A stretch of 64,000 nt of DNA from Eggerthella sp. YY7918. Its GTDB lineage: Bacteria; Actinomycetota; Coriobacteriia; Coriobacteriales; Eggerthellaceae. Where the stretch lies: contig NC_015738.1 of assembly GCF_000270285.1 (NCBI RefSeq), positions 434,001-498,000 of the forward strand, in the 5' to 3' direction. Of the stretch, positions 21,185 to 63,794 are shown in pieces (within the stretch, counting starts at the first letter, position 1; each line of letters begins with the position of its first letter). A program made the translations under genes and the position numbers. Below the pieces are notes generated by a model. It was given only the letters and a program-made list of their open reading frames with translations, had not been told where the DNA came from and did no database searches.

Positions 21185-21290
21185 CTGCTCGCACGAGTGG
21201 CTGAAAGTAACATAGTTCCGCTGCCCAAGACAGCAGGTACCGACAAGGTTTAATCGCAGCAATGCGGCCCGCCGAGGTGGTTCTGATAAG
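21185..21290 (+). ncRNA. Ribosomal protein L10 leader
   Basis: The untranslated leader contains the conserved L10-leader core (CTGCCCAAGACAGCAGGTAC at 21221-21240), where the L10-L12 complex binds to autoregulate its operon. It is flanked by complementary segments and followed by a terminator. Confidence 0.75.
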
Positions 21291-21303
21291 TTTCGCGCTT
21301 TGA

Positions 21304-21343
21304 CGACCCCTGCGTCTTTGGACGGCAGGGGTCGTTTCTTTTT
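21304..21343 (+). terminator. Attenuator terminator in the L10 leader
   Basis: A 10-bp perfect stem (CGACCCCTGC with GCAGGGGTCG) is followed by TTTCTTTTT, about 60 bp before rplJ. It probably lowers read-through when L10 is in excess. Confidence 0.75.
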
Positions 21344-21405
21344 CTCAAGCGACGATCCCACCCGCGAGGGGCGGAACCCGAGTTTGAGAAGAAGGAGGTG
21401 TACAT

Positions 21406-56679: not shown

Positions 56680-59139
56680 ATGTACCAGGTTCAGAAGCGT
56701 GACGGCAAAGTCGCGGAGTTCGATATCGCAAAAATTTCGAACGCTATTTCGAAGGCGTTCGATGCATGCGAAAAACAGTACCATCCTTCTACCATCGACC
56801 TTCTGGCCCTGAATGTAACCGCTCACTTCGAGCCGAAAATCAAAGACGGCATTATTAGCGTCGAAGATGTGCAGGACAGCGTCGAGGAAGTGCTTTCCAC
56901 CGCAGGCTACGCCGATGTGGCGAAGGCCTACATCCTCTACCGCCGTCAGCGCGAGAAGGTGCGCAACGCGAAGGCGACGCTGCTTGATTACAAAGACCTG
57001 GTTGACAGCTACGTCAAGGTGGAAGACTGGCGCGTGAAGGAAAATTCCACGGTCACGTACTCCGTCGGCGGCCTCATCCTGTCCAACTCGGGCGCCATCA
57101 CGGCGAACTACTGGCTCTCCGAAATCTACGACGACGAGGTGGCAAACGCCCATCGCAGCGCCGACATCCACCTGCACGACCTGTCCATGCTCACGGGGTA
57201 CTGCGCAGGCTGGTCGCTCAAGCAGCTCATTCAGGAGGGCCTTGGCGGCGTGCCCGGCAAGATCACGTCGAAGCCGGCCAGCCACCTGTCCAGCCTCTGC
57301 AACCAGATGGTGAACTTCCTCGGCATCATGCAGAACGAATGGGCCGGCGCCCAGGCGTTTTCCAGCTTCGACACGTACCTTGCACCCTTCGTGAAGGTGG
57401 ACGGCCTCACCTACGAAGAGACGAAGCAGTGCATCGAGTCGTTCGTGTTCGGCGTGAACACTCCCAGCCGCTGGGGTACGCAGGCTCCGTTCAGTAACAT
57501 CACGCTTGACTGGGTATGCCCGCCCGACTTGCGCGATCAGCCGGCCATCGTGGGTGGCAAGGAGATGGACTTCACCTACGGCGAGTGCAAGCGTGAAATG
57601 GATATGGTGAACAAGGCGTTCATTGAGATCATGATCGAGGGCGACGCGAATGGCCGTGGCTTCCAGTATCCCATTCCCACCTATTCCATCACGAGCGATT
57701 TTGACTGGTCAGAAACGGAGAACAACCAGCTGCTCTTCGAGATGACCAGCAAGTACGGCACGCCCTACTTCAGCAACTACATCAACTCCGACATGGAGCC
57801 CTCCGACGTGCGCTCCATGTGTTGCCGTCTGCGCCTCGACCTGCGCGAGCTGCGCAAGAAGTCAGGCGGCTTCTTTGGCAGCGGCGAGTCCACGGGTTCC
57901 ATCGGTGTCGTCACCATCAACATGCCGCGTTTGGCCTACCAGTCTGCCGACGAAGCTGACTTCTACAAGCGCCTCGACCACCTCATGGACGTGTCCGCGC
58001 GCTCGCTGCATACGAAGCGCGAGGTCATCACGAAGCTTTTGGACGCGGGCCTGTATCCGTACACAAAGCGCTACCTGGGAACGTTCGAGAACCACTTCTC
58101 GACGATTGGCCTGGTGGGCATGAACGAGGCGTGCCTGAACGCGAAGTGGCTGCGTGCCGACATGACGCAGGAGCCGGCGCAGAAGTTCACCCAGGCCGTG
58201 CTCAATCATATGCGCGATCGTCTGGCCGACTATCAGGAGGAATACGGCGACCTGTACAATCTCGAGGCCACGCCGGCCGAGAGTACCACATACCGCTTCG
58301 CCAAGCACGACAAGGAGCAGTTCCCCGACATCATCACGGCCAACGAGCAGGGCAAACCGTACTATACGAATTCCTCACACCTGCCGGTCAGCTACACCGA
58401 TGACATCTTCAGCGCGCTCGATGTGCAGGACGAGCTGCAGACGCTCTACACGTCCGGTACCGTATTCCACGCGTTCCTCGGCGAGAAGCTGCCCGACTGG
58501 CAGAGCACGGCCACGCTGGTGCGCAAGATTGCCGAGAACTACAAGCTGCCGTATTACACCATGTCGCCGACGTATTCTGTATGCAAGAACCATGGTTATA
58601 TCGCCGGCGAGGTGTACGAATGCCCCTGCTGCCACGAGGAGACGGAAGTCTACAGCCGCATCACTGGCTACTATCGTCCGGTGAAGAACTGGAACGACGG
58701 CAAGAGCCAGGAGTTCGCCGACCGCGTAGAGTACGATCTGGCGCACTCGCATCTCACGCGTCAGGGAAGCGTGCAGGTGACGGCTGCCGCCGAGCAGGCC
58801 GGCCAAGCGGGATCGCACGTGACGGTGCCCGGCGCTGAAGCTCCAACGGTACCTGAGACATCCGAGGCCGCTGACCACAGCACCCTGCCTGCGGGCCTCT
58901 ATCTTGTCGCCACGCGCACGTGCCCGAACTGCAAGTTTGCTGCTGCAGAAATGGACAAGGCTGGCATTGCCTACGAAGAGCTGCTTGCGGAAGAGAACGT
59001 GGAGATGGCCCAGCGATATCGCATCATGCAGGCACCGACGTTGCTTGAGGTCGCTTCTGACGGGGCGGTATCGATCATCGCAGGTGCAGCTCCAGTCTTC
59101 CAGAAAATTAACGAGATGAAAGCGCAGGTAGTTGCCTAA
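56680..59139 (+). CDS. nrdD: Anaerobic ribonucleoside-triphosphate reductase with C-terminal glutaredoxin-like domain
   Basis: The 819-residue protein starts with an ATP-cone (VQKRDGKVAEFDIAKISNAI) and continues into the class III reductase barrel. It has the zinc-type cysteines CPCCHEE and the glycyl-radical site RITGYY (about 660). After a Gln/Ala/Thr linker (about 695-735) it carries about 80 residues with the thioredoxin-fold CPNC motif (about 747-750) and a cis-proline QAPTLL, resembling NrdH/glutaredoxin. The tail could supply reducing equivalents. The ATG follows AAGGAG. Confidence 0.92.
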   Translation: MYQVQKRDGKVAEFDIAKISNAISKAFDACEKQYHPSTIDLLALNVTAHFEPKIKDGIISVEDVQDSVEEVLSTAGYADVAKAYILYRRQREKVRNAKATLLDYKDLVDSYVKVEDWRVKENSTVTYSVGGLILSNSGAITANYWLSEIYDDEVANAHRSADIHLHDLSMLTGYCAGWSLKQLIQEGLGGVPGKITSKPASHLSSLCNQMVNFLGIMQNEWAGAQAFSSFDTYLAPFVKVDGLTYEETKQCIESFVFGVNTPSRWGTQAPFSNITLDWVCPPDLRDQPAIVGGKEMDFTYGECKREMDMVNKAFIEIMIEGDANGRGFQYPIPTYSITSDFDWSETENNQLLFEMTSKYGTPYFSNYINSDMEPSDVRSMCCRLRLDLRELRKKSGGFFGSGESTGSIGVVTINMPRLAYQSADEADFYKRLDHLMDVSARSLHTKREVITKLLDAGLYPYTKRYLGTFENHFSTIGLVGMNEACLNAKWLRADMTQEPAQKFTQAVLNHMRDRLADYQEEYGDLYNLEATPAESTTYRFAKHDKEQFPDIITANEQGKPYYTNSSHLPVSYTDDIFSALDVQDELQTLYTSGTVFHAFLGEKLPDWQSTATLVRKIAENYKLPYYTMSPTYSVCKNHGYIAGEVYECPCCHEETEVYSRITGYYRPVKNWNDGKSQEFADRVEYDLAHSHLTRQGSVQVTAAAEQAGQAGSHVTVPGAEAPTVPETSEAADHSTLPAGLYLVATRTCPNCKFAAAEMDKAGIAYEELLAEENVEMAQRYRIMQAPTLLEVASDGAVSIIAGAAPVFQKINEMKAQVVA

Positions 59140-59237
59140 CGCCCGGAACTTAGGTTCCGTTATAAGACGAGAGGGCGTACAACTGGCATACTCGCAACCT
59201 GTACTCTCATACATACAGCAAGCGCCCAGCCACTATT

Positions 59238-59265
59238 CGGAGCCGGATCGAAAGATCCGGCTCCG
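59238..59265. terminator. nrdD terminator hairpin
   Basis: A perfect 12-bp stem (CGGAGCCGGATC with GATCCGGCTCCG) closes a GAAA tetraloop; the T tract is short. Confidence 0.6.
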
Positions 59266-59474
59266 CTGTTAGATGGTCTTTCGGGGGAGGTGGGCTGCCG
59301 CAAGGCTCTTTCGGAAAATTTTTCTTTCACGACAAGGGCAGAGAGAAAAGCAGTCCTAATCCTTTTGCAAGATACCTTTATGACCAGGTAAGATAGATGC
59401 TCCTCAGTCATATGTTCTATAGGGTGTCGAAAAAGCTCATGACTTTTTGTTGGGGAAAATGGCATGATTCAACC

Positions 59475-59504
59475 TTGAGTTTAGGCTGGGGGGGGGGCTA
59501 TCAT
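59475..59504 (+). promoter_or_regulatory. Promoter with a G10 tract in the spacer
   Basis: TTGAGT (59475-59480) and TATCAT (59499-59504) are separated by 18 bp that contain ten consecutive G (59488-59497). Length change in the G run would alter the -35/-10 distance. It drives the riboswitch and surface-protein gene. Confidence 0.6.
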
Positions 59505-59585
59505 ATTCTCAAGGCAAACCCGCCGTAAGGCGGCGACGCAAAGCTACAGGGGCCATATCGGTTCGATGGGTCAGCCAGCTGCGGT
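59505..59585 (+). ncRNA. Cyclic di-GMP-I (GEMM) riboswitch
   Basis: The core elements appear in order: AAGGCAAACC, a stem CCGCC-GTAA-GGCGG with GNRA tetraloop, GACGCAAAGC, then GGGGCC with a second hairpin (ATCGGTTCGATGGGT) and AGCCAGCTG. This is the canonical class I c-di-GMP aptamer. The surface-protein start lies about 75 nt downstream; the following CTGCG...CGCAG pairing may be part of the expression platform. Confidence 0.85.
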
Positions 59586-59660
59586 CTTTCTTTTCGCGCA
59601 GTATCCTACCAAGTAGGGGCCATTCCGTCGAAGCATAGGTCCAGCGTGGAAGGCACCCAA

Positions 59661-62600
59661 ATGCACACTAAACGTTCGAGTAAAGCTCACTCTCTCCTTG
59701 CCATTATGCTCAGTGTTTTGCTGGCAACTACTCTTATGGTTCCACCTTTGGCTTGGGCCGAGAGCGAAAGCGAGACAAGCCAGCCCACCGAAGGCCAGTC
59801 GAAAGACCAGCCGAACGGCGACGACACGCAATCATTCCAGCCTAGTGAGAGCGAACAGGCGGGCACGGAGAACCCCGACGAGAATACCTCTCACGCAAAC
59901 AACGAGCAACAGAGCGCGTCTGATCAAGATCAGAACGGCCTCCAAAGTAACGGGGTTGCCACCTTCGCTCTGCCAAACTCTGCGAAAACTGCTGAGAATG
60001 TCGCGCAAGTGGATACTACGAGCTATACCTCTCTTGCTGATGCCATCGCGGCAGCCGAGGCTGGTGACACAGTGACGCTGCTGGCCGATGCAACAATCAG
60101 CGAGAAACTCGTTATCAACAAGCGGCTCACCCTCGACGGCGCGGGTAAAACCATTACCGCAACGGGCTTGAATCCGGTTATCGAACTGAATACCACAGAT
60201 GAAGTTACCATCTCCAAGCTTACTGTTACTGGAGCTAAGCGAGGACTTGCGCTCTGCCCTGGGGTCCACGTGACCTTGATCGGATGTACGCTCAATGTAT
60301 CTGAAAGGGGTATTGACTCGCAAAAAGATATTCCGTACGAGAACATGAGTATCATCTTGGATAACACCGTCATAAATAACAGCGGCGTGAGCAACTACGA
60401 AACCCAAACCACCTACCACACGGATTCCCGGGGTATATCCCTTTATAACAGTAAGAACTCCGTTGTGAAGGTCCAAAATGAAAGCTCTATTAATGGGTTT
60501 GCCTACTGCGTAAACGTGTCTGGCAGGGAAAACTCTAACGGAGTGCGTGATACCGAGGGCTTGAAAGTCGAAGTGGTCGATTCAGTGTTGCGCGGTTGGG
60601 CGGGCTTCAATGTATGGGGTTCTTTAGCTGAATATTCCATCATCAGCTCTACCGTTAAGGGCATTAACACGCAGAACGAGGGTGCGAATAGCTTTGCTGC
60701 TATCGTGTTCAATGATGACATTTACGATCAATTCGCTCAAACCCATGCCGAGAATAACATACTCAATATTACCGACTCCACTATTACGAACTACCAAGGT
60801 GGTTCCTGCATTGAAGATCTGCTCCGTATCGATTGTGGGATAACGGCGCTGAATCTTTCGGGTGTGGTGAACTTCGTCGATACGACCGGGAATGTAGAAG
60901 GGGCTCTAGATCTTGAAGAGATGAGTGACCCCTTTGCATTCCTGCAGAAGCAGGTTCATCGTGCCGGTGGAACGACGGTCAATTGCACGACCGTTGACGG
61001 TGCATCTCTCGCATTCGCGCCGGATTACCTCGCGTATTACTATCGCGATGATGGTAAGGGTGGGTTCAAAGGAACAAGTCGCACTGATTTTGCGGACATA
61101 GTAACGGGCAATGGCTACACATTCCGTGCGGGTGAATATATCGATTTGCTGGCCGATGTTAACCTAGCTGAAAACATCACGGTCAATCTGGAAGAGGGCA
61201 CCGGCACCTTTACTCTTAATCGTAAAGGCCATGCCATAACGGGCGGCACCATAACATTGCCTCAGGGGGTTTCCGTAAAAACCGATGCGCCGAATGAAGG
61301 CTTGTTCGCTGCCGCTGCAGGATGCGTGTTGTTGGAAGGGGTCGTTGGCGATGTGTACACCTACAGCGCACAGCCGGAGGGCGTTGCTGCAGTAACCAGA
61401 TCAGATGGCTCGGCCAAGACATACCCGACACTGGAAGCTGCCTTCGCAGCTGTACAAAATGGCGACAAGGTGACGCTGTTGAAAGATGCTACACTCACTG
61501 CAACAATCGCGTTAGAAGTCGCTGATCAAAATGTGACCTTAGACCTTGATGGGCATACAGTTAACTTCGGATCTAAGTATATAACCACGAAGAAGGGTGA
61601 GTTGAACATTATTAATAGCAATCCTTCGAGCGAGGGTAAACTTGTCTGCCCCCAACAGCCCCTCAGGGTAATGGGGAACACCAACGCCAGTACATGGTCG
61701 GAGCCAAGGAATGCGAAACTGTCCATTGGCTCCAATGTAGTGGTTGAGGGTAGCAACGGACCAGGCATTTACCTTGCAGGTAACGGAGCGGTTCTCGATG
61801 TATATGGCACCGTGCGCACCTCGGCGAACGCCGGAGGTATTCAAGGCGACGGCAATGTTAATGCAACGAAGAATTGCGGTGGGACAATTGCTAACGTGTA
61901 TGAAGGCGCTGTGGTCGAGGGTACCTATGGTGTGTACTGGCCGCAGTCCGGTACGCTGAATATCAAAGGTGGCACGATAACAGGCAAATCGACGGGCATC
62001 GAGATGCGTGCGGGTACGCTGAACATGTCAGGTGGCACTGTAGTCGGAAACGGCTCTGAAGTCATAGTTAATCCCAACGCTAGTGGCGGCACAATAGAGG
62101 GCGTGGGTATTGCGGTGGCCCAGCATACCACTAAGCTTGCCATGAATATCAACATCACAGGAGGCGAGATCTCGGGTTATTCGGCGCTCTACGAGAGCAA
62201 CCCGCAGAATAACGCTCCAGGTGAAATAGATCAGGTAAACCTCGCTCTATCGGGCGGCGTATTCAAGACTATCAACGAGGGCAGTGTTGCGCTGTATAGC
62301 CAGAATAAGACCGGTTTCATCGCCGGCGGTACGTATTCGAGCACGCTGGATACGAACTATATTGCAAAGGGTTACTATCAGCATGCGACCACGGGTACGG
62401 TGCAGCAGCTTCCCGAGACAGCAGAATACACCGTCGAGCACTACTGGCAGAACGTCGATAACGACGAGTATTCAACCACGCCGCATGAAACCGAAACGCT
62501 CAGCGGTAAGCCTTACGAAGACACCGAAGCTGCAGCGAAGTCCTATGAGGGGCTCACGGTGTCCACCGATCCCATCGTGCAAAAGGAAATTGCTCCCGAG

Positions 62601-63794
62601 GGCACCACCGTAGTGAAGGTGTACTACGACCGGAACACCTACAAGGTAACGTGGAATCCTGCGGGGGGCACCTTGAGCGGCGCTACTCAAACGCAAGTTC
62701 GCTTCGGCGCACCCATCCCACAGGCTAGCGCCACAAAAGATGGTTTCCTGCTTGCCGGCTGGTCGGATATGCCCGAAGCCATGCCTGCGGATAATATCGA
62801 GCTTACCGCGCGTTGGGCTCCCGTGGTCAAGCCCACGGATCCCAGTGTTAATCCCGATTTGGATATCGCAGTCGACATTCCTGCTATCAATCCGGACCCG
62901 ACCGTGCCCAGTGCTACGATCACTGAAGAAGCAAAGCAGACTGCGGTTAGCACAGCTTCTCAAGTGCTTGATGCTGTGTCGCAAGGCATTGTTCCTCCGG
63001 GCGTGACACCGGAAGAAGCGGCTCGCATTAACGAGGTTGTCGGAAAGGACCCCTCTCATAAGATAACTGCGGTGGTGTCAGTCTCTGTCGAACAGAAAAC
63101 GCCCGATGATATCGCAGAGGATGCCTCTCGTGTTGATGGCGCACTCAATCAAGACCAAGAGGTTGCTGTCTACTTCGACATCAAGGTGAATCTTATAGTC
63201 CGAAACGAGACCACAGGAAAATCGACCAACGCTACTCTGACCAATTTAGAAGAGCCGCTCGTGTTTGAAGTGCATGTTTCACCTGATCTTATTGCCGGAA
63301 AAGCGGTACGCATTGCATGCGTACATGAGGGAAATCTGCGCTGGATTGACCCTATCTCGGTAGACTACGAAACCGGCGTCATCTTGCTTAGTGCGGATGC
63401 TTTCTCTACCTATGCGGTGGTTACGTCGTCAACAGTGGAGGTGGCTTTCGAATCCAATGGTGGCTCGGCAGTGCCCACGCAAACGGTAGCCTTCAGAGGC
63501 AAGGTGACCAAGCCTGCTGATCCCACGCGGAGCGGCTATGCGTTTGCCGGTTGGTATGCCGACGCGGCGCTCACGCAACCCTGGGACTTCGATACCACGG
63601 TGAGCTCGTACATGACGCTCTATGCGAAATGGACCGCCGTCTCCGGTGGAGAAACGCCCAAGGCTCCCGGAGCGCTCGGAAAAACAGGTGACAGCCTAGG
63701 CGGTGCTGCTACGCTTCTTGTGCTGGGTATGGCAATCGCCGCAGGAGCAGTGATGCTGTCCGCCCGTCTGGTCGCCGCTCGCCGCAAGCGCTAA
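59661..63794 (+). CDS. Large secreted beta-helix surface protein with sorting-signal-like C-terminus
   Basis: The protein is about 1377 residues. A signal peptide ends near AWAES; a Glu/Ser/Gln-rich linker follows. Two right-handed beta-helix regions each open with a DAI/AAF...GDTVTLL repeat (about 120-440 and 590-890). Next come a MucBP-like domain (about 915-985), an InlB_B/Flg_new-type repeat ending ELTARW and another ending TLYAKW. The C-terminus has LGKTGDS, a hydrophobic helix and RRKR, like a sortase signal with Pro replaced by Gly. The start at 59661 follows GGAAGG. It is AT-richer than its neighbours. A c-di-GMP riboswitch precedes it. The likely role is adhesion. Confidence 0.85.
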   Translation: MHTKRSSKAHSLLAIMLSVLLATTLMVPPLAWAESESETSQPTEGQSKDQPNGDDTQSFQPSESEQAGTENPDENTSHANNEQQSASDQDQNGLQSNGVATFALPNSAKTAENVAQVDTTSYTSLADAIAAAEAGDTVTLLADATISEKLVINKRLTLDGAGKTITATGLNPVIELNTTDEVTISKLTVTGAKRGLALCPGVHVTLIGCTLNVSERGIDSQKDIPYENMSIILDNTVINNSGVSNYETQTTYHTDSRGISLYNSKNSVVKVQNESSINGFAYCVNVSGRENSNGVRDTEGLKVEVVDSVLRGWAGFNVWGSLAEYSIISSTVKGINTQNEGANSFAAIVFNDDIYDQFAQTHAENNILNITDSTITNYQGGSCIEDLLRIDCGITALNLSGVVNFVDTTGNVEGALDLEEMSDPFAFLQKQVHRAGGTTVNCTTVDGASLAFAPDYLAYYYRDDGKGGFKGTSRTDFADIVTGNGYTFRAGEYIDLLADVNLAENITVNLEEGTGTFTLNRKGHAITGGTITLPQGVSVKTDAPNEGLFAAAAGCVLLEGVVGDVYTYSAQPEGVAAVTRSDGSAKTYPTLEAAFAAVQNGDKVTLLKDATLTATIALEVADQNVTLDLDGHTVNFGSKYITTKKGELNIINSNPSSEGKLVCPQQPLRVMGNTNASTWSEPRNAKLSIGSNVVVEGSNGPGIYLAGNGAVLDVYGTVRTSANAGGIQGDGNVNATKNCGGTIANVYEGAVVEGTYGVYWPQSGTLNIKGGTITGKSTGIEMRAGTLNMSGGTVVGNGSEVIVNPNASGGTIEGVGIAVAQHTTKLAMNINITGGEISGYSALYESNPQNNAPGEIDQVNLALSGGVFKTINEGSVALYSQNKTGFIAGGTYSSTLDTNYIAKGYYQHATTGTVQQLPETAEYTVEHYWQNVDNDEYSTTPHETETLSGKPYEDTEAAAKSYEGLTVSTDPIVQKEIAPEGTTVVKVYYDRNTYKVTWNPAGGTLSGATQTQVRFGAPIPQASATKDGFLLAGWSDMPEAMPADNIELTARWAPVVKPTDPSVNPDLDIAVDIPAINPDPTVPSATITEEAKQTAVSTASQVLDAVSQGIVPPGVTPEEAARINEVVGKDPSHKITAVVSVSVEQKTPDDIAEDASRVDGALNQDQEVAVYFDIKVNLIVRNETTGKSTNATLTNLEEPLVFEVHVSPDLIAGKAVRIACVHEGNLRWIDPISVDYETGVILLSADAFSTYAVVTSSTVEVAFESNGGSAVPTQTVAFRGKVTKPADPTRSGYAFAGWYADAALTQPWDFDTTVSSYMTLYAKWTAVSGGETPKAPGALGKTGDSLGGAATLLVLGMAIAAGAVMLSARLVAARRKR

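Follow-up and report, generated by a model that had tools for sequence, protein, structure and literature searches.

Does the run of ten G in the promoter of a large surface-protein gene of Eggerthella sp. YY7918 act as a random switch, and is that switch placed in series with a riboswitch for cyclic di-GMP (c-di-GMP)? The question arises near one end of a 64,000-nucleotide (nt) stretch of contig NC_015738.1 (positions 434,001 to 498,000), hereafter the window, where a promoter-like sequence with a G run in its spacer, a c-di-GMP-I aptamer and an open reading frame (ORF) for a protein of 1377 amino acids (aa) follow one another on the same strand. Judging from sequence comparisons within this genome, among its relatives and in other phyla, we consider it probable that the locus undergoes slipped-strand phase variation of promoter strength, which would act in series with the c-di-GMP riboswitch on one transcript.

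Architecture of the locus

The elements of the locus, in window coordinates, are the following.

59475-59480, + strand: −35 hexamer TTGAGT (sequence; sigma-70 scan)
59488-59497, + strand: homopolymer of ten G (G10) within the 18-nt promoter spacer (sequence; shuffle comparison)
59499-59504, + strand: −10 hexamer TATCAT (sequence; sigma-70 scan)
59503-59586, + strand: c-di-GMP-I (GEMM-I) riboswitch aptamer, RF01051 (Rfam cmscan; whole-genome search)
59590-59599, + strand: CTTTTCGCGC, predicted partner of 59644-59653, masking the Shine-Dalgarno (SD) sequence once the aptamer forms (constrained fold; weak)
59648-59653, + strand: SD sequence GGAAGG, 7 nt upstream of the ATG at 59661 (sequence; constrained fold)
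59661-63794, + strand: gene for the putative 1377-aa surface protein, with a signal peptide, a possible beta-helix region, a Flg_new/InlB-type repeat and an LxxTGD-transmembrane-RRKR tail (ORF, domain search, sequence)
63441-63629, + strand: Flg_new repeat (PF09479; Listeria-Bacteroides/InlB-type), residues 1261-1323, single copy (E = 2.6e-23)
63675-63692, + strand: LGKTGD, a presumed LPxTG-like sorting motif, followed by a hydrophobic stretch and a basic tail (sequence)

The original prediction, made from this DNA alone, had described a poly-G promoter, TTGAGT-N18-TATCAT with ten G in its spacer, directly followed by a c-di-GMP-I aptamer and a gene for a beta-helix surface protein of roughly 1377 residues. 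The promoter coordinates (59475-59504) are borne out; this is the sole sigma-70-type match in 59130-59720, agreeing with the consensus at 9/12 positions (shuffles mean 0.4), although the assignment is a consensus match only. The exact promoter string occurs once in the window (shuffle mean 0.01). Transcription would be expected to start near 59511, approximately 7 nt past the −10 hexamer and right at the aptamer, and promoter and aptamer together span roughly 110 bp. G10 is also found once in the window, whose GC content is 58%, and 6/100 dinucleotide shuffles of the window contain G10 anywhere, so the run by itself is unremarkable. What is notable is its position: as in porA-type promoters, the homopolymer lies between the −35 and −10 hexamers of a surface-protein gene, here in an 18-nt spacer.

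Covariance-model searching confirmed the aptamer: RF01051 matches over its full length (positions 1-87 of 87) with 56 bits, the gathering score being 35, and E = 3e-8. It lies on the same strand as the gene and in its 5' leader, with 74 nt from the model end to the ATG at 59661. Constrained folding, a weak form of evidence, gave the SD bases of this leader an unpaired probability of 0.06-0.96 when the leader was left free and 0.03-0.25 when the aptamer was forced. The forced aptamer frees CTTTTCGCGC to mask the SD sequence, which predicts less translation upon binding (OFF). A terminator scan found no terminator overlapping the aptamer at the window locus; the scan gave a match, several of them weak, at 19/34 related c-di-GMP-I loci (8/20 in the same family and 11/14 in the rest of the order). 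At some related loci the 3' strand of the aptamer has an alternative pairing partner further downstream, a GCAGCTGGCTGCC-like arm ahead of a T-run; the two can form a terminator-like hairpin, so that binding should prevent termination (ON). The predicted sign of the riboswitch is thus ON at some related loci and OFF at the window leader.

The ORF at 59661-63794 encodes 1377 aa, in agreement with the size first proposed. With its signal peptide (judged by eye) and its LGKTGD motif, which we take to belong to the LPxTG-like class of sorting motifs, the product is predicted to be a secreted protein of the wall-anchored type. The beta-helix part of the original prediction stands as a weakly supported suggestion. 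The protein shows no Pfam beta-helix match, even at E 5. An AlphaFold2 model of residues 576-921 (pLDDT 63.9, pTM 0.71) gave 241 matches in the PDB at E ≤10, none at ≤0.001 (best 7.7e-3) and with low TM-scores; pectate lyases, tailspikes and AlgG, which are beta-helix proteins, account for most of them and suggest this fold.

Runs and riboswitches within and beyond the genome

The genome, a single contig of 3.12 Mb, contains four c-di-GMP-I aptamers above cut-off, each ahead of a large signal-peptide protein, and 30 distinct G/C runs of at least nine (49 overlapping matches). All four aptamer loci (4/4) have such a run. Two runs lie in 18-nt promoter spacers, i.e. at the window locus and at L004 (G9, TTGCGT-N18-TACTAT), and two in coding sequence, i.e. 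C9 in the 5' portion of the L001 gene and, in the L003 gene, G9 at about 1.5 kb from the aptamer. Three of the promoters, those of the window locus, L004 and L003, are homologous and have the 18-nt spacer in common; the first two contain a run (G10 and G9, respectively) and that of L003 contains none.

A second grouping of genes led to the same runs. Flg_new is found above cut-off in five genes, and a run of at least nine accompanies 5/5, three times in a promoter spacer (window, L004 and the locus at 1460193) and twice in or at the start of the coding sequence (L003 and 1996609). The number of runs expected in the DNA of these five genes is 0.16 (P ~8e-7, by a Poisson estimate that uses approximate gene lengths and ignores shared ancestry). 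The count omits three Flg_new rows below cut-off; one belongs to the L003 gene and the others to two additional genes. In one of these, 2212294, C9 falls within the first codons, as it does in the adjacent gene for a 648-aa protein, whereas the other, 2908098, shows no run in the 8.5 kb fetched. The locus at 1460193 (L028, L080) is the third poly-G promoter, TTGACA-N18-GATACT with G9; it has no riboswitch and precedes the gene for a Flg_new surface protein of 478 aa. These three clear promoter runs were picked out by eye. At 1996609 and 1120603 (L081, L082), surface-protein genes have G10 and G11 in or after their signal-peptide codons, with an interrupted frame there in the assembly. C9 lies in the first codons of both members of a pair of adjacent paralogous minus-strand genes at 2213985 and 2216225 (L190), whose products are over 3000 aa and 648 aa long.

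Among relatives, c-di-GMP-I aptamers occur in 14/138 genomes of the same family (20 loci) and in 80/396 genomes of a draw from the class. We examined 99 loci above cut-off, 20 from the family, 14 from elsewhere in the order and 65 from elsewhere in the class, having dropped one row below cut-off (G817:C232). A run of at least nine lies within −150 to +900 of the aptamer start at 6/20, 5/14 and 0/65 of these loci, respectively; contig ends cut 5/27 of the other-class loci having long flanks. As controls for the order, we used cobalamin riboswitches from the same 23 genomes and, because these gave few, thiamine pyrophosphate (TPP) riboswitches as well. A nearby run is present at 11/34 c-di-GMP-I loci versus 0/40 controls (TPP 0/28, cobalamin 0/12; Fisher 6.8e-5), in a comparison where the c-di-GMP-I loci share ancestry and are not independent and where contig ends cut six control loci. 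When only the 21 controls above cut-offs are used (6 of the 12 cobalamin rows and 15 of the 28 TPP rows), the Fisher value is 3.9e-3.

The layouts vary. Two loci in another genus of the family have a G9 run in a promoter spacer about 50 nt ahead of the aptamer, TTGACA-N18 with G9 before CATTAT at L060 and TTGACA-N15 with G9 before TATCCT at L055. In order-level relatives, the runs (G9-G11) come after the aptamer; the clearest examples fall in signal-peptide codons, with an open frame at L146 and L183 and an interrupted one at L186. The promoters of L240 and L241, from the same genus, contain 9 and 10 G, respectively. Two loci of genome G099, L049 and L059, have G11 and G10 runs further upstream, at about −1250 and −1140.

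Looking across phyla, we searched the genomes of about 85,000 species for a G8 run closely followed by c-di-GMP-I core motifs. This yielded 10 stretches, four of which contain an Rfam-confirmed c-di-GMP-I-type aptamer; the other six were discarded as chance matches. One of the four, in an actinobacterial metagenome-assembled genome (L035), has a real aptamer and was left out of the count for its unclear promoter. The remaining three show the arrangement of the window locus: L041 (Lachnospiraceae; TTGACA-N17-TATAAT with G8 in the spacer), L044 (Lachnospiraceae; near-consensus promoter with G8 in an 18-nt spacer) and L042 (Omnitrophota; TTGACA-N18-TATATT with G11 in the spacer, aptamer of class c-di-GMP-I-GGC), the taxa being taken from record titles. 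In each of these genomes the pattern TTGNCA-G8-TANNNT matches at the riboswitch only, and the reversed pattern gives 0 matches. The scan limited the distance from run to core to ≤35 nt, and layouts like those of L060 and L055 would therefore be missed.

Poly-G promoters at large were surveyed as well. A search of 397 Lachnospiraceae genomes for TTGACA-G8-TATAAT gave 14 places, spread over 13 genomes (0 for the reversed control), with spacers of 14 nt (1), 17 nt (2), 18 nt (5), 19 nt (3) and 20 nt (3). Twelve of these promoters (L087-L098) have no c-di-GMP-I aptamer and mostly precede lipoprotein- or signal-peptide-like genes. For the order, represented by 297 genomes, TTGACA-G8-TANNNT gave 39 rows, which correspond to 37 places and come from 27 genomes (1 for the reversed control); 30 of the 37 places were scanned for an aptamer. 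Promoter-like sites span 8 to 20 G. Runs of 12-20 G in such sites are found in one family of the order (L256, L260 and rows of G839, G750 and G806), and G806 and G839 each have several similar long-G copies that are one or a few G apart.

Readings of the G run

Under the reading that we prefer, G10 would be the variable part of the promoter; it occupies most of the spacer in the sole promoter-like site found before the gene. Slipped-strand mispairing would add or remove G and shift the −35/−10 distance around its 17-18 nt optimum, and this shift would set promoter strength cell by cell, in a heritable yet reversible manner. As each transcript would start with the c-di-GMP-I aptamer, c-di-GMP would gate production of the surface protein. 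In the resulting gate, the stochastic promoter state would determine which cells can express the protein, and c-di-GMP when they do so.

Comparative evidence favours a role for the run as a contingency element, because paralogous promoters with and without a run keep a constant 18 nt, 5/5 Flg_new genes have a run, frames are interrupted at several coding runs and two same-genus promoters differ by 9 versus 10 G. The original prediction of a random ON/OFF switch stacked on a second-messenger switch therefore divides in two. The stacking is real and recurrent; the random switching we infer from comparison. That populations would be mixed and c-di-GMP-responsive as well is likewise something that we infer, because the direction of the riboswitch is predicted both ways.

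Several points weigh on the other side. The −35 hexamer TTGAGT is poor, and homopolymer counts in assemblies may err by one base. The same-genus loci L244 and L245 both have G10, while L247 and L248 have G10 and G11 with an equal spacer. No length variation within or between strains was seen, the comparisons covering one genome per species. In the same family, a far-upstream control region contains runs at 2/20 loci. Aptamers follow only 2/14 of the Lachnospiraceae poly-G promoters, both of them the seed loci L041 and L044, and 1/30 of those scanned in the order. In 18/30 of the latter the nominal spacer is 15 or 19 nt, not 17-18 nt, which could reflect mixed states, other choices of the −10 hexamer or wrong calls.

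The best surviving alternative is that the run is part of a general programme of surface-protein phase variation, the riboswitch alongside being incidental, with c-di-GMP also happening to control surface proteins. We regard it as a serious possibility, somewhat short of an even chance; it concerns the origin of the pairing and is compatible with switches in series at the locus, and the likelihoods given to the two overlap. One of the three promoter runs in this genome, that at 1460193, indeed has no riboswitch, nor do most of the poly-G promoters scanned elsewhere. Furthermore, as assessed by a crude test, signal-like N termini are frequent after poly-G promoters (12/14 in Lachnospiraceae and 17/27 in the order, where three more have no ORF) relative to TPP controls (6/28); at c-di-GMP-I loci of the order they number 21/33. 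With signal-like genes frequent after poly-G promoters and the aptamer rare, the theme is a wide one of surface proteins and the c-di-GMP stack is a subset of it. Against a merely incidental pairing, the riboswitch is found at 2/3 promoter runs and a run at 4/4 riboswitch loci of this genome, and the same pairing recurs in Lachnospiraceae and Omnitrophota. We rejected a general link from poly-G promoters to c-di-GMP riboswitches, as most of the promoters scanned have no aptamer. The association holds the other way round: riboswitch genes carry runs, as tested within the order.

Alternatively, the run might be static, with no useful length change: as a stiff G-rich spacer it would reduce the basal strength of the promoter or serve an activator, leaving regulation to c-di-GMP alone. 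The constant 18-nt spacer of the three paralogous promoters would fit, as would L244 and L245, which keep G10 though their upstream sequence diverges. However, the paralogous L003 promoter has equal spacing and no run, related genes have runs in coding sequence, where a role as spacer is impossible, and lengths in promoter-like sites range from 8 to 20 G, and we consider this explanation improbable. Finally, a chance G run in a GC-rich genome is barely credible and was rejected on the matched riboswitch controls (11/34 versus 0/40): G10 does arise in 6/100 shuffles of 64 kb and the genome has 30 distinct runs, but two such placements in one genome, each within an 18-nt spacer ahead of an aptamer, and the like arrangement in Lachnospiraceae and Omnitrophota, argue otherwise.

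Slipped-strand variation might extend to the signalling side. The genome contains 23 GGDEF matches, and at genome position 390075 (L079, ~1076) a G9 run directly precedes a GGDEF domain of a GGDEF-EAL-PAS-GGDEF protein. Read from the ATG that follows an SD sequence, the frame of this gene stops soon after G9, and the GGDEF domain lies in another frame, a disagreement that makes a phase-variable c-di-GMP enzyme possible. A wider picture, which we put forward tentatively and think rather less likely to be right than wrong, is that poly-G runs sit at both ends of the circuit (the four riboswitch surface genes and the enzyme at 390075), that cells randomly combine surface genes and signal level, and that the promoter-aptamer design originated independently in Actinomycetota, Bacillota and Omnitrophota.

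Relation to known systems

Among the closest systems that we found are two in Clostridioides difficile (PMC8844915, PMC5386303), where cmrRST combines a c-di-GMP-II riboswitch with the invertible cmr switch, and flgB the c-di-GMP-I riboswitch Cd1 with the flagellar switch. Both place a c-di-GMP riboswitch and a phase-variable element on one transcription unit, as we propose for the window locus. There, however, phase variation is by site-specific DNA inversion downstream of the riboswitch, independent of it in cmrRST, whereas here the candidate element, a homopolymer, belongs to the promoter from which the aptamer itself is transcribed. An invertible switch of the C. difficile type at the window locus was rejected, with 0 inverted repeat pairs of at least 14 bp in 58900-59900.

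Other likenesses concern the tract. In Neisseria meningitidis, porA has a poly-G of 9-11 between the −35 and −10 hexamers and proven length variants (PMC3639595); the position in the spacer of a surface-protein gene is the same, the window tract is a candidate, and the part of that report available mentions no riboswitch. In Gardnerella, about 70% of G/C tracts lie upstream of ORFs and tract length varies between colonies (PMC11287997). The associated proteins include InlB-repeat and LPXTG types, and the excerpt mentions no c-di-GMP riboswitch. Helicobacter pylori sabA, as excerpted in PMC2715451, combines a poly-T promoter tract, a coding CT repeat and ArsRS control; random tract variation is thus laid over signal-responsive control of one adhesin, although the tracts are poly-T and CT and the signal acts via a two-component system, not RNA. 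For Eggerthella lenta, a preprint describes large inversions (PMC13174815). Among the best-ranked open-licence literature matches, only the C. difficile inversion systems were, judging by titles, relevant to a riboswitch combined with homopolymer phase variation, and none reported simple-repeat phase variation of this kind in Coriobacteriia or Lachnospiraceae. The component parts are of known kinds; the combination of a c-di-GMP riboswitch with a simple-repeat promoter, and the recurrence of this pairing, look new.

If the proposed mechanism is right, bet-hedging by hypermutable repeats and a graded second-messenger response, two logics usually studied apart, would meet on one transcript, at a locus where no recombinase element was seen. 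Because one input acts in the promoter, through the run, and the other in the RNA, through the aptamer, tract-length alleles and c-di-GMP level would separate them cleanly. For Coriobacteriia and Lachnospiraceae, both of which are gut-associated, the findings also suggest that surface proteomes may be phase-variable.

Two further RNA leaders were noted in passing, a ribosomal protein L10 leader (RF00557) at 21206-21349 of the window (50.3 bits) and the Rfam L31-Coriobacteria leader in a relative from the same family.

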